Positions 27,247 to 64,000 of a stretch of DNA of 64,000 bases are shown here, piece by piece. This DNA is from Paenibacillus sp. R14(2021). GTDB lineage: Bacteria; Bacillota; Bacilli; Paenibacillales; Paenibacillaceae. The stretch spans positions 1,054,001-1,118,000 of the forward strand of contig NZ_CP080269.1 of NCBI RefSeq assembly GCF_019431355.1. The letters are read 5' to 3'. Under the pieces are notes generated by a model. The model had not been told where the DNA came from and did not search any database. It was given only the letters and a program-made list of their open reading frames with translations. How positions within the stretch are numbered: position 1 is the first letter of the stretch; every line of letters begins with the position of its first letter. Made by a program: the position numbers and the translations under genes.

Positions 27247-27486
27247 TCAAGGCTCCAACAAGCCGTATTTGAGCTTAATTCGGTCCAGCTTCTCCAGCAT
27301 CGGCCGCGATAAGTACCATAAGAAGATCACGGTCGCAACGGCATGCACCAGGTCAAACCAGAAGCCTGAAGCATACGAAGCCAACAGCGCACCCCAAGTG
27401 AAAGTTGGGGTGAACATCATGACCGAACCGAGGTTGATAATGCCTCCATATATAATTAATGTCGTTAATCCACCGAACACTTCATT
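27247..27486 (-). pseudogene. C-terminal remnant of an ECF-transporter S component (probably cobalamin, CbrT-like)
   Basis: About 75 codons are readable: GGLTTLIIYGGIINLGSVMM, TFTWGALLASYASGFWFD and LVHAVATVIFLWYLSRPMLE. This is the C-terminal third of a membrane S component of energy-coupling-factor vitamin importers. The open frame extends upstream to 27531 only by running through the cobalamin riboswitch. There is no start codon with a ribosome site. An expected 110 or so N-terminal codons are missing, so riboswitch and tail were joined by a deletion. The riboswitch supports vitamin B12 as the original substrate. Confidence 0.75.
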
Positions 27487-27620
27487 CTCCCCCATTCCAG
27501 AATCGGAACAGTGGCTTGCCTGAGAACTCACTCCGCATTTACAGTGGCGGGACCGCGCCGGCTTCGCACCGGACTTCCCTATTAAGCAGCCGGATGAGCA
27601 TTCATCCGGGCGTGCACCTT
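27487..27620 (-). ncRNA. Cobalamin (AdoCbl/B12) riboswitch
   Basis: Read on the minus strand: GGTGCACGCCCGG start, the stem GCCCGGATGAATGCTCATCC-type P2 region, GGGAAGTCCGGTGCGAAGCC, CGGTCCCGCCACTGTAAATG, GAGTGAGTTCTC, the B12 box AGCCACTG and the closing GGAATGGGGGAG. All conserved blocks of the cobalamin riboswitch are present in order. Its aptamer therefore looks intact. It controls whatever follows on the minus strand, which is now only the tail of an ECF S component. Confidence 0.92.
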
Positions 27621-27649
27621 AGCCGTTATCTATGAAATTGTGAAGGTAT

Positions 27650-60100: not shown

Positions 60101-61579
60101 TTAGAGCGCAATAACCTTCGTCGCGATTCGTTTGCAAAATTCGCTGTCGTGCTCGACGAACAGAATCGTCGGTTCGTATTCGAGCAGCAGTTCCTCCAAT
60201 TGGATGCGGGAGATGACGTCGATGAAATTGAGCGGTTCATCCCAAATATGCAAATGGACGCGCTCGGAGAGGCTTTTGGCAAGGAGCACCTTCTTCTTCT
60301 GACCGCCGCTGAACGCGGCCATATCCTTCTCGAATTGGACGCGGGAGAAATCGAGCTTGCGCAGAATCGACTTGAACAGACTTTCGTCAATGCCGCTGTT
60401 TCTCGCGTAATCCGTCAGATTTCCTTGCAGAAACGACGTGTCCTGCGAGACGTACGAAATCTTCAGCTGGCTTCCTCTTCGGAAGGTCCCCGTATGGCTG
60501 ATATCCTCGCCGCGGATGAGCTTGATGATGCTGGATTTGCCGCTGCCGTTCCTTCCCGTGAGCGCGATGCGGTCCCCCTGCTCGATTACAAAATTAACGT
60601 CCCCGCATACGTGCTTGTCGCCGTAATAAATCGACACATGGTCAAGCTCGGTGAGCTGGTGCTTATGATAAACGAGCTGCGAGATTTTCAAGCTGTCCGC
60701 GCTTTCGATATTTTGAAGCAGCTTCGACTTGTCTTCGATCGCGGACTGCTGACGCTGCTCGATGGATTTGGAGCGTTTCATCATTTTGGCAGCCTTGTGG
60801 CCCACGTAGCCTTTATCGATCTTGGAACCGGAATTTCGCGTGCCGTTCTTCGTTTTCTCGACCTCGTGCGACCATCCGCTCGTGCGTTTGGCGGCTTCGG
60901 ACAACCGTTTGATGTCCGATCGCAGCTTCTCGTTCTCGGCCAGCTCGAATTGGTCCTCCCGCTCTTTGTTCGCCCACCACTCGGAGAAATTACCCTTCCG
61001 AATCTCGATCGAAGTTTTGTTGATGGATAGAATATGGTCGACGCAGCGATCCAGGAACGCTCGATCATGAGAGACGAGGATAAAGCCGTTCTTCGACCGC
61101 AAATACTGACTGACAAGCTTACGCCCCTCCATGTCGAGATGGTTAGTCGGCTCGTCGATCAACAGAAACCGGTCTTCCTTCAGGAATAGCGCCGCAAGCA
61201 GCACCTTCGTCTGCTCGCCGTTCGATAAGGAATCGAAAGGCCGGTACATCACGTCTTCGGGCATCTTCAGCAGCGATAGCTCGCGTATCAATTCCCAATG
61301 CTCGTAATCCGCCAAAATACCGTCGATGACGTCCAGCGTTTGATCTGCCTTGTTTGCTACCTCGAACGGAAAATAATCGAAGCCCACCTTCGACGAAATC
61401 GTTCCGCCGTACGCGTATTTCCCAAGCAGCAGATTCAAAAAGGTGGTCTTGCCTCTTCCGTTCCTTCCGGTAAAGCCTAGTTTCCAGTCGGTATCCAGTT
61501 GGAAGCTTACGTTCTCGAAAATGGTATCATAGCTGCCTTCATGGGCAAACGTCAGGTTCGTTACATTAATTAATGACAT
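60101..61579 (-). CDS. ABC-F ribosomal-protection ATPase (Lsa-like)
   Basis: 492 residues, two ATP-binding domains and no membrane segment. Domain 1: Walker A GRNGRGKT, signature SLSNGEQTK, Walker B LLIDEPTNHLD. A long inter-domain linker at about 190-290 (the ribosome-reaching arm) contains KRTSGWSHEVEKTKNG. Domain 2: GRNGSGKS, FSGGQKKK, HIWDEPLNFID. Lsa/Vga/Msr-type proteins displace lincosamides, pleuromutilins or streptogramin A from the ribosome. Sequence features are closest to Lsa. AGGAGG before ATG 61579; it sits behind a leader with attenuator. Confidence 0.92.
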   Translation of the reverse strand: MSLINVTNLTFAHEGSYDTIFENVSFQLDTDWKLGFTGRNGRGKTTFLNLLLGKYAYGGTISSKVGFDYFPFEVANKADQTLDVIDGILADYEHWELIRELSLLKMPEDVMYRPFDSLSNGEQTKVLLAALFLKEDRFLLIDEPTNHLDMEGRKLVSQYLRSKNGFILVSHDRAFLDRCVDHILSINKTSIEIRKGNFSEWWANKEREDQFELAENEKLRSDIKRLSEAAKRTSGWSHEVEKTKNGTRNSGSKIDKGYVGHKAAKMMKRSKSIEQRQQSAIEDKSKLLQNIESADSLKISQLVYHKHQLTELDHVSIYYGDKHVCGDVNFVIEQGDRIALTGRNGSGKSSIIKLIRGEDISHTGTFRRGSQLKISYVSQDTSFLQGNLTDYARNSGIDESLFKSILRKLDFSRVQFEKDMAAFSGGQKKKVLLAKSLSERVHLHIWDEPLNFIDVISRIQLEELLLEYEPTILFVEHDSEFCKRIATKVIAL

Positions 61580-61608
61580 GAAATATCCTCCTGCTTATAA
61601 AAAAATAA

Positions 61609-61638
61609 GAGCCGCAAGAAAGTTACTTCTCGCAGCTC
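61609..61638 (-). terminator. Leader terminator (attenuator) before the ABC-F gene
   Basis: On the minus strand GAGCTGCGAGAAGT pairs with ACTTTCTTGCGGCTC, followed by TTATTTTTTTAT. It lies 30 bases before the ABC-F start. Its 3' arm also pairs perfectly, over 11 bases, with an earlier leader segment. Confidence 0.85.
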
Positions 61639-61742
61639 AAATCCATATACAGCAAATCAAACCCCTCCACGGGGGTTCGATCGGGATATCCGGTTTGAGT
61701 CGATGCGATAACGGAACTTTCTTGCATAGCCAAATAAAACAT
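61623..61742 (-). CDS. 39-codon leader peptide of the ABC-F attenuator
   Basis: ATG 61742 has GAAGG at exactly 7 bases (61750-61754). The peptide begins MFYLAMQESSVIAS and ends LYMDLSCEK; its stop TAA (61623-61625) lies inside the attenuator hairpin. Codons 6-9 overlap the leader segment that competes for the terminator 3' arm. A stalled ribosome could therefore release or block that pairing, as in known antibiotic-resistance leaders. Confidence 0.75.
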   Translation of the reverse strand: MFYLAMQESSVIASTQTGYPDRTPVEGFDLLYMDLSCEK

Positions 61743-61826
61743 GCGAAAACCTTCGTTTTCATCGTTTTATTCCCAGCAAGAAAATTCTACATTACCGCAC
61801 TCAACCCCAATCCTTAAATTACGGGT

Positions 61827-61855
61827 ATCATAACACCATTATGTCTTCAGATCAA
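61827..61855 (-). promoter_or_regulatory. Promoter of the ABC-F leader transcript
   Basis: On the minus strand TTGATC (61850-61855), 17-base spacer and TATGAT (61827-61832), with a TG one base upstream of the -10. The transcript would start near 61820, giving a leader of about 240 bases. Confidence 0.7.
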
Positions 61856-61882
61856 CCCAAAGCCGCTGCCCCTCAAGAATCA

Positions 61883-63847
61883 TTATTTCGTCAGCGCTTT
61901 CCGCTTGCTCTCGCCGATCCCGTTCCAGATAACCGATGGAATCTGTTCGCGCTTGAGCCGATCGAGTATACCCGGGCCGGTCTCCGGCTTCAAATGGATA
62001 TCCGACGCGTTCGGGGAGCCGACTTTGGCCTTTTCGGCGCCGGGATGTCCATGCACGTAGAAGGTTTCGTTCATGCCATTGCCCGATACGGTACAGACCA
62101 CTTCGTTGGTCGGCATTTTGATTTTCAACCGCTTAACGTCACTGTATGTGATCGTATAGTAATTTTTCTCGACGAGCACGCCCAGCAGACGAACCCATTT
62201 CGAGAAGTTGCCCGCCTTGGTGACGTTATTCATCATATTGGCCTGAATCGCCTGCTCGAGCGCGCTCGCGTCCAGCCCGTTCCCCCATGCCTGCTGCTCC
62301 AGAAGCACCCTGGCCGCGTCCCATTCGGCCTTCTCGCACATAGCGAGCGCCGCGAGCAGATCCTTCGCAGTATTCGCTTTGGGCGACAGCGTGACCAGCA
62401 GCTGCATTTTGTTGACATCCGAGGACTTGTACGGCGGCGCCGCGTCCAGCAGCTTCACGATCTCATTGACCGTGTAGGTCTGAACGAGCGTGATGAGATG
62501 GCCGATGACCGCCTGATCCGTGCAGTAGGCGAAGAACTTGCCGACGCACTTGGACAAGTCCAGCAATACGGCTCCCGGCACCCCTCCGTTAAACAAGGCA
62601 AGCAGGAAAGATATATAGATTTTGTTGTCCAAGTACGGCGCCAATCCGTCCGGCTTCAACTGCTGCAGCAGCTGCCCGATTTGGGGCGGAGCGAATAGCT
62701 CGCACAGGTACAGCAGCTTGTCGATCGACAAGCTCGCGTTCAGTGCGAAGGCCTCGCCGTCTTTGCCAAGCATGACGACTTCCATGATTTGCAGCGCATC
62801 GGCGAACAAATTGGACGTCATCCCGAGAACCTTGTCGGCCTGCGGATGATACTTCGCCGCCTTGTAATACGCCGCGTATTGTTCCTTTCGCTCCTCGGTG
62901 ACCTTCTCGTAACCGGGTCCGTTGACTTCCGCCCGCTTATTCACGGCATCCAGCGCGATCTCTTCCTTCTTCGGTTTGGCAAGCCGCTCCTGCTCGGCCA
63001 GAAGCAGCTTGTTGCGTTTGAAATCGGATTTTTCCTTCTTCACCTTGCGCTCTTCGGAAGCCGGTTTGTATTGTTCGTCGAATGCCTGTTTTTTCCGATC
63101 CGACTCCTCTTTATCAATCGAGAATAGCTTGCTTTGCTTGTCGAAATCCGCATATTTCTCGACTTCGGCGTCGACGCGTTCCAAGAGCTTCTCGTTAAAG
63201 TTGAACTTCTTGACTTCATCGAGCTTCTTCCGGGCAAGCGCCAAATTCTCGGCCTTCAGTACGGAGGATACCACGTATTTCAAATGGCCTTTGTTATCGC
63301 CAATCTCTTCCGCGCACGAACGAATGACGGTCATGTGTTCTTCCGTGATGACCGCCGAGCCGGCAGCTTCCTGCGCTCGTAGATACAGCTTCAGCAATTG
63401 AAGATAACGCTCGTTGCCATCGCCCGCTTCGCGTCCGGCCCATACGGCCATCTCTGTGCTTGCGCCGGGCTGCTCGAGAAACTGCATCGTCATCTCCGCC
63501 CGTTCATCGCCGGTAAATGCGCCAGGTACATCTAAGACGGCGGCTCTCACCTTGTTTAAGCCGTAGCTCTCAATTAGCTTGCGCAGAATATCGGCTTTGG
63601 CGGGATCGCCTGAAGCGAGATCAAGGCTGATCGCCCCGATCGACATCAACCCGGACCCAACGCGCTGGATCGGTTCGCCTGCAGTTTTCTTCATCATTTG
63701 CACGACGGCTTGATTGCCAACCATCCGCTGAAGCGCAAGCAAGCGGTTTTGCGAGCCAAGCTCGGCGCCGGCCTTGTGCGGCTGCGAGACCGGATGCGAC
63801 GAAGCGCTATGGGTTTGACGGTTCATATGTCGTTCATTCGTGTACAT
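61883..63847 (-). CDS. Large protein with eCIS-cargo-type LQRxxGNxAV leader
   Basis: 654 residues from ATG 63847 (AGGGAG about 13 bases before it); the frame opens at 63985 near the window edge. An N-terminal disordered, Ser/His/Pro-rich leader is followed by NRLLALQRMVGNQAVVQMMK, the motif seen at the start of extracellular contractile injection system cargo and DUF4157-type toxins. A helical region (DEVKKFNFNEKLLERVDAEV, then KKQAFDEQYKPASEERKVKK) is highly charged and likely coiled coil. The C-terminal third is alpha-helical with ending PSVIWNGIGESKRKALTK. No catalytic motif is recognised and no injection-system structural genes are in the window. It may be a secreted toxin or effector, or an orphan cargo. 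Confidence 0.65.
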   Translation of the reverse strand: MYTNERHMNRQTHSASSHPVSQPHKAGAELGSQNRLLALQRMVGNQAVVQMMKKTAGEPIQRVGSGLMSIGAISLDLASGDPAKADILRKLIESYGLNKVRAAVLDVPGAFTGDERAEMTMQFLEQPGASTEMAVWAGREAGDGNERYLQLLKLYLRAQEAAGSAVITEEHMTVIRSCAEEIGDNKGHLKYVVSSVLKAENLALARKKLDEVKKFNFNEKLLERVDAEVEKYADFDKQSKLFSIDKEESDRKKQAFDEQYKPASEERKVKKEKSDFKRNKLLLAEQERLAKPKKEEIALDAVNKRAEVNGPGYEKVTEERKEQYAAYYKAAKYHPQADKVLGMTSNLFADALQIMEVVMLGKDGEAFALNASLSIDKLLYLCELFAPPQIGQLLQQLKPDGLAPYLDNKIYISFLLALFNGGVPGAVLLDLSKCVGKFFAYCTDQAVIGHLITLVQTYTVNEIVKLLDAAPPYKSSDVNKMQLLVTLSPKANTAKDLLAALAMCEKAEWDAARVLLEQQAWGNGLDASALEQAIQANMMNNVTKAGNFSKWVRLLGVLVEKNYYTITYSDVKRLKIKMPTNEVVCTVSGNGMNETFYVHGHPGAEKAKVGSPNASDIHLKPETGPGILDRLKREQIPSVIWNGIGESKRKALTK

Positions 63848-64000
63848 CCGAAGTCCTGATCTCCCTTGTTTCCAGATCTTTCTATCATACGCGTTTCGTA
63901 ATTTGGCAGCAATCCATACGACGAAAAATAAGCCTTTCTGTGGAATGAACCCTATGTAATTTTTTACTTTACTGATCGTTCTCAATATGTTAGTATGGGT

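Follow-up and report, generated by a model that had tools for sequence, protein, structure and literature searches.

What controls read-through into an Lsa-like ABC-F gene of Paenibacillus sp. R14(2021), and which part of its leader could sense an antibiotic? The gene lies on the minus strand of the window, the 64,000-nucleotide stretch of contig NZ_CP080269.1 analysed here. Its product passes the general ribosome-protection family NF000355 (485 bits, cut-off 380), has Lsa(A) (7nhk, E 1.4e-125) as its best PDB sequence match and narrowly misses the curated cut-off of the NCBIfam Lsa family NF000167 (743.5 against 750 bits), so we call it Lsa-like. Its drug range is likewise presumed, because P. 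larvae gained no lincosamide resistance from an ABC-F of Paenibacillus cineris that is loosely LsaB-like (PMC8116656). A sequence-only reading of this DNA had proposed an attenuator in which a ribosome stalled on a 39-codon upstream ORF (uORF) chooses between two mutually exclusive RNA structures. The elements on which it built are all in place, namely the promoter TTGATC-17-TATGAT, a terminator 30 nt ahead of the ABC-F ATG and an exact 11-base complementarity between GCAAGAAAGTT in the leader and AACTTTCTTGC in the terminator 3' arm (Table 1). The leader, about 240 nt long from its predicted transcription start point, folds to -101.2 kcal/mol; 200 shuffles give -61.6 (sd 4.8), so that z is -8.3, and 0/200 fold as well. 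Promoter-like sites (3 vs 1.8 in shuffles) and terminator-like sites (4 vs 2.4) are not in clear excess when the window region is taken alone. A 700-aa ORF with no Pfam match at E 0.001 lies 5' of the leader on the same strand (61883-63985).

Table 1. The ABC-F gene and its leader: positions in the window and basis of each assignment.
Feature	Position	Strand	Basis
ABC-F gene, Lsa-like, ribosome protection, 492 aa	60101..61579	-	ORF list; profile and structure-sequence matches
Promoter, -35 element TTGATC	61850..61855	-	Sequence; promoter-like pair also in relatives
Promoter, -10 element TATGAT, spacer 17 nt	61827..61832	-	Sequence; relatives
uORF Shine-Dalgarno (SD) region GGGGTTGAG (GGAGTTGA in most relatives)	61800..61808	-	OFF partner is the anti-SD stretch; helix 89.5% of cells paired
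Candidate start-stop uORF, ATG TAG	61787..61792	-	Start and stop in 67/81 non-redundant leaders
Segment 1 TTTTCTTGC	61776..61784	-	Mostly under the footprint expected for a ribosome at the uORF start
Apical hairpin of anti-antiterminator, 5' arm	61755..61771	-	Helix scan, alignment
Apical hairpin of anti-antiterminator, 3' arm	61733..61750	-	Helix scan, alignment
39-codon ORF of the sequence-only reading, judged non-functional	61623..61742	-	Relatives and modelled ribosomes
Segment 2 GCAAGAAAGTT	61715..61725	-	Partner is segment 1 (OFF) or segment 4 (ON)
Switch element with CTCAA	61694..61703	-	Partner is the SD region (OFF) or the terminator foot TTTGAG (ON); 94.8% of cells paired
Segment 3, terminator 5' arm	61626..61638	-	Terminator scan, alignment
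Segment 4, terminator 3' arm and antiterminator partner AACTTTCTTGC	61614..61624	-	Alignment
Terminator stem (61638-61609) and U-tract	61597..61608	-	Terminator scan
ABC-F gene ribosome site GGAGGAT	61585..61591	-	Sequence

We compared the leader with those of 110 related ABC-F loci, made up of the best 30 matches from 59 genomes and the best 80 of 593 relatives in named contigs, some of which share a genome. A script that accepted an ATG up to 25 nt or a GTG up to 15 nt 5' of segment 1 parsed the leader in 92 loci, and a covariance model found it strongly in six and weakly in two of the 18 unparsed ones; by script and model together, it is absent from 10 of the 110 fetched loci. Removal of near-copies (>92% identity) left 81 non-redundant leaders, and 80 of these, without the divergent L026, form alignment A1. 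A promoter-like pair matching at least 9/12 positions is present in 64 of the 81, and the -10 element sits 35-45 nt 5' of the start codon in 77, each taken as the best of a 35-nt range without a shuffled control.

A helix scan of A1 returned the terminator (14 bp) and the pairing of segments 2 and 4 (13 bp) as its two longest helices, each 99% paired, and the 11-base complementarity is thereby kept across the 80 aligned leaders. Next in length were the apical hairpin (9 bp), the segment 1:2 helix (8 bp, 99%) and the SD:anti-SD helix (8 bp, 90%), and the inner helix of the ON state, CTCAA:TTGAG, is one of several candidates of 5-7 bp. In the OFF structure 95.4% of cells are paired, against 50-59% when partners are slid by 1-3 columns, and in the ON structure 97.9%, against 36-53%; these percentages are partly circular because RNAalifold returned only the 1:2 core and the terminator, the other helices coming from the scan of the same alignment. 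Covariation scores are 0.183 for OFF (slid, at most 0.092) and 0.086 for ON (slid, at most 0.043). Two-sided pair changes number 12 in OFF (5.6 in column shuffles, 10-11 slid) and 4 in ON (0.5 in column shuffles, 1-5 slid). We did not accept these counts as proof of structure, since they do not exceed the slid controls, and covariation therefore rests mainly on two terminator pairs. The terminator is paired in 98.9% of cells and shows two-sided changes at 4 of 13 pairs, one of which is A-U in 39 leaders and G-C in 35. Variation in the 1:2 core is one-sided, with no two-sided change, as expected if segments 1-4 constrain one another, a pattern that is also weak evidence. Pairing conservation is strong and covariation modest. 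The earlier proposal that the two structures exclude each other is borne out by alternative pairings conserved in relatives.

The 39-codon ORF exists in the window, but its conservation in relatives, one of the checks put forward with it, fails: a homologous ATG occurs in 29 of the 81 leaders only, opening frames of 4-66 codons. Ribosomes modelled at 15 of its codons in the window (1, 3, ..., 29) give an antiterminator probability of 0.00 and a terminator probability of 0.92, even at codons where the 1:2 helix is broken. We rejected this ORF as the sensor, a role that is now hardly credible. What survives of the sequence-only reading is its logic, that of a drug-stalled ribosome on a uORF releasing an antiterminator, which is the likeliest explanation; what does not is the ORF it named. 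It had overlooked a conserved ATG TAG 50 nt 5' of the 39-codon ORF, which is the better candidate for a sensor.

This start codon is found in 92 of 92 parsed leaders, as ATG except for GTG in L020 and, by alignment, L019, and stands just 5' of segment 1 (TTTCTTGC), an arm of the anti-antiterminator. A stop follows as codon 2 in 75 of the 92 leaders and in 67 of the 81 non-redundant ones (TAA 35, TAG 21, TGA 11; at L019 the script took an ATG TGA further up, but the alignment gives GTG TAA, which could shift one count from TGA to TAA). The other 14 carry ORFs of 2-8 codons, among them MYISC, MDNLSC, ME, MK, MV and MIK, each ended by a stop. Counted from the A of the start codon, segment 1 starts 8 nt downstream in 47 of 81 leaders and therefore ends at +16, where a toeprint is reported on the vmlR uORF (PMC9226507).

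A long, structured and conserved leader could also be a riboswitch or a protein-bound element whose ATG is coincidental and untranslated. We regard this as very unlikely, because the start codon varies to GTG only, because its U is retained despite being largely free of pairing (0.33), and because an SD-like stretch with a conserved pairing partner is conserved upstream of it. Nor does the leader reach the gathering score of any Rfam 15 family, with six sub-threshold matches around it, and we rejected its assignment to a known Rfam element. Initiation at the conserved start codon is, on these comparisons, well supported. The sole Rfam match in the window is a cobalamin riboswitch at 27415-27635 on the minus strand (39.3 bits).

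Modelling a ribosome as a block on the folding RNA changed the preferred structure. In free leaders, the 1:2 helix and the terminator exceed a probability of 0.5 in 81 of 81 and the antiterminator in none; a block over nt -15 to +15 relative to the start codon takes the antiterminator above 0.5 at equilibrium in 73 of 81, and a block in the hairpin loop leaves mean probabilities unchanged. In the window's leader, P-site offsets taken every 6 nt from -24 to +42 flip the switch at 0 and +6 only. The flip depends on the assumed footprint size, since footprints of -5 to +15 (0.99) and -15 to +12 produce it, whereas 0 to +15 (0.04), -15 to +10 (0.36) and -15 to +5 do not. At full length and equilibrium, 8 of the 81 leaders and 12 of 15 leaders parsed from distant families keep the terminator despite the block (3 of 15 flip), and for the leaders that keep it the partly transcribed state, examined after that failure, is a post hoc result. 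Once 3, 5, 7 or 10 nt of the terminator 3' arm have been transcribed, the antiterminator is ahead in 81 of 81 leaders with a ribosome and in 1 of 81 without; with 13 and 20 nt made, it leads in 77 and 75 of 81 with a ribosome. For the 15 distant leaders, the corresponding counts at 3, 5, 7, 10, 13 and 20 nt are 12, 14, 15, 14, 4 and 3 with a ribosome and 0, 0, 3, 2, 0 and 0 without. Segment 4 emerges loop side first, as GTAAC, which in the conserved structures pairs with segment 2 and not with segment 3, making a kinetic head start of segment 2 plausible.

We consider it probable that the leader attenuates transcription in the ribosome-mediated manner of vmlR, and that its sensor would be a ribosome arrested at the start of a one-codon uORF. 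From the sequences, their conservation, the pairings and the folding under a footprint, we infer that the uORF is translated, that a drug is the trigger and that read-through is the outcome. Without drug, a ribosome would initiate at the ATG-stop, terminate immediately and depart; the SD, start codon and segment 1 would then refold onto segment 2 and the anti-SD stretch as the OFF hairpin, letting the segment 3:4 terminator form and end transcription 30 nt ahead of the gene. A drug acting at the peptidyl transferase centre would hold the initiated ribosome, whose footprint, reaching to about +15/16, would cover segment 1. Segment 2 and CTCAA would be freed, CTCAA could take the terminator foot, and segment 2 would capture the emerging segment 4, so that RNA polymerase reads into the resistance gene.

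The vmlR leader of Bacillus subtilis likewise combines an anti-antiterminator containing a very short uORF, an antiterminator and a terminator just ahead of an ABC-F gene (PMC9226507). Here, a terminator lies between promoter and ABC-F gene, the anti-antiterminator and antiterminator are mutually exclusive by pairing and modelled folding, and a short uORF with its putative ribosome site, mostly a start-stop, sits inside the anti-antiterminator. With these structural features present, the leader probably works as vmlR's does, the drug response being presumed. Induction of vmlR requires the uORF start codon, its inducers are drugs that stall initiating ribosomes, and MDN and MDK can serve for the native MIN, with MRK less effective (PMC9226507). 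The two leaders differ in that the vmlR uORF is the tripeptide MIN, where we find a start-stop, and in that vmlR has an extra hairpin hiding the gene's own ribosome site (PMC9226507).

Whether the stop itself matters is a separate question. We lean towards a peptide-less drug sensor. In it no peptide bond is made, and the arrest would directly reflect the state of the peptidyl transferase centre in a ribosome that has initiated or is terminating; a nascent-chain code would play no part, and a shortage of elongator amino acids would have no effect. Such a sensor would serve, in the order and beyond, as a transferable module for resistance mechanisms of at least two unrelated kinds, protection by ABC-F proteins and methylation of 23S rRNA by Cfr-type enzymes. 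Release-factor hydrolysis can be inhibited by peptidyl-transferase drugs. The same switch could also operate with a stop that is incidental: any start codon in this position would suffice because a drug-bound initiation complex stalls regardless of the next codon, and UAA, UAG or UGA would be kept solely for pairing with the flank of segment 2. We give this version a substantial probability that stays somewhat below even. The OFF hairpin engages all three positions of codon 2 in pairing (0.93, 0.88 and 0.81), codon 2 is a sense codon in the 14 leaders named above and in all 15 parsed distant ones, and TGG is not clearly depleted (2 observed vs about 4 expected). On the other side, a tree of 80 proteins shows 19 stop-to-stop changes against 10 between stop and sense. 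Among the five sense-codon leaders with a TAA ahead of segment 1, that TAA is in frame in four (the MV, MK, ME and MIK forms) and out of frame in L004, a pattern with a chance of about 0.05 that was spotted after the fact and is weak. Distant leaders keep GTAA at this place with their ATG in a different frame; the pairing with the flank of segment 2 therefore does not dictate an immediate stop. Since pairing of codon 2 alone favours T-R-R and TGG is not clearly depleted, selection for the stop itself cannot be told apart from the demands of base pairing and is not proven, and we do not claim it. The uORF peptide itself is not conserved: parsimony counts 12 switches between start-stop and peptide forms, three of them forced by well-supported branches, on a quick tree of 89 proteins (the 80 plus 9 of 10 distant ones, with L026 and L217 dropped as truncated) in which 40 of 86 inner branches are unresolved.

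Other ABC-F genes, most with a similar drug range, also follow short uORFs: MAGN for LsaA, MR[I/M] for CplR and MK[L/Q] for VmlR2 (PMC10201436), and MLV for are5sc and MVGDDDISG for tiaA, with toeprints at both in the presence of LSAP drugs (PMC12421871). As given in the cited passages, each of these has at least three codons including Met, and the likeness to our leader is one of short uORFs ahead of ABC-F genes. The LsaA, CplR and VmlR2 uORFs were computed with uORF4u, whose default minimum is nine nucleotides (PMC10219788), so a six-nucleotide start-stop would escape that default, and a finder with a three-codon minimum can overlook a widespread leader class. Start codons followed directly or almost directly by a stop occur in E. 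coli and C. jejuni (PMC11955535, PMC9841429), and E. coli start-stop sites with potential regulatory functions have been cited (PMC11955535); they are internal out-of-frame, overlap or reinitiation sites, and none appears in the passages cited as a drug-sensing attenuator. No start-stop drug-sensing leader was found among the matches listed in a literature search of openly licensed PMC papers. If the proposed reading is true, the smallest possible reading frame is an antibiotic sensor, resistance to initiation-stage drugs can be induced without any leader peptide, and the leader offers a simple RNA for asking whether such drugs also block release-factor hydrolysis of fMet-tRNA.

Covariance-model searches of overlapping samples found the leader in 167 of 296 genomes of the order (E <=0.01), 33 of 299 of the class (E <=0.001) and 22 of 398 of the phylum (E <=0.01, weakest E 0.0084), three of the last being from the window's own genome and family. 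Among 17 other loci of the phylum search (L209-L225), 16 have an ABC-F relative in the stretch retrieved, which in one of the 16, L209, is just a fragment. Of 16 leaders passed to a parser, 15 could be parsed, and 13 of their uORFs read M/V-x-x-x-S-C followed by a stop and two MR or MK followed by a stop. The ABC-F genes of L210, L211, L212 and L216, from distant families, branch among those of Paenibacillales in a quick tree (SH-aLRT 92-94, not starred), a placement suggesting that gene and leader were transferred together.

In the order, we examined 90 matches, made up of 30 loci and 60 hand-picked ones with second copies favoured, a set that overlaps the 81- and 92-leader sets. The gene downstream is a close ABC-F in 65, a Cfr-family methyltransferase in 19 and something else in six, these being truncated, degraded, without a recognisable gene or a 60% ABC-F paralogue. 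Three Cfr-family proteins scanned against TIGR04432 pass its cut-off of 550 with 638.6, 626.6 and 629.3 bits, and the remaining 16 genes were assigned by a sequence motif in the ORF. The script read a start-stop in 78 of the 90 matches (80 with L184 and L194 read by eye), a short peptide frame in nine and no start in one. One shared switch would thus link ABC-F and Cfr-type genes. The nature of these two downstream genes, both tied to peptidyl-transferase drugs (ranges in PMC10201436), speaks against a switch that reports general translation trouble, such as slow initiation or low release factor. A start-stop ORF needs only initiator tRNA and release factor, so any post-initiation block would act on it, and erythromycin and linezolid also induce VmlR weakly (PMC9226507); we nevertheless judge this broader sensing unlikely and retain peptidyl-transferase drugs as the presumed trigger.

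At 19 of 19 loci (L146 to L207), another conserved leader ORF separates the start-stop leader from the Cfr-type gene. In the window's own genome it reads MFEVVHVLVNRSLPVGTVHDQIKRMSEHYPTIDRCT before its stop (L230:1878-1988), and it always ends in D(R/K)CT and a stop, as the script required. It holds an inverted repeat, and by eye a hairpin covers the ribosome site of the Cfr-type gene; this is perhaps a second, translational attenuator. What is left of an lsa gene, a stretch from its last 40 codons, lies between leader and Cfr-type gene at L159 and L172, which suggests that the Cfr-type gene may have acquired the leader through loss of an intervening lsa gene.

The window's genome has two further copies of the leader. 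One, with ATG TAA (C1:5230166-5230370), precedes a broken lsa copy, an intact Cfr-type gene and an lsa paralogue, and the other (C1:5219711-5219902), degraded at its 5' end, precedes a disrupted lsa copy. Both extra leaders, the broken lsa copies, the Cfr-type gene and the lsa paralogue lie within 15 kb (C1:5219711-5234675; L229, L230). The 59-60% lsa paralogue (L027, L028, L029, L030, L194) has, by eye, another short ORF resembling MSTDTVITHDLLRISR near an inverted repeat just 5' of the gene.
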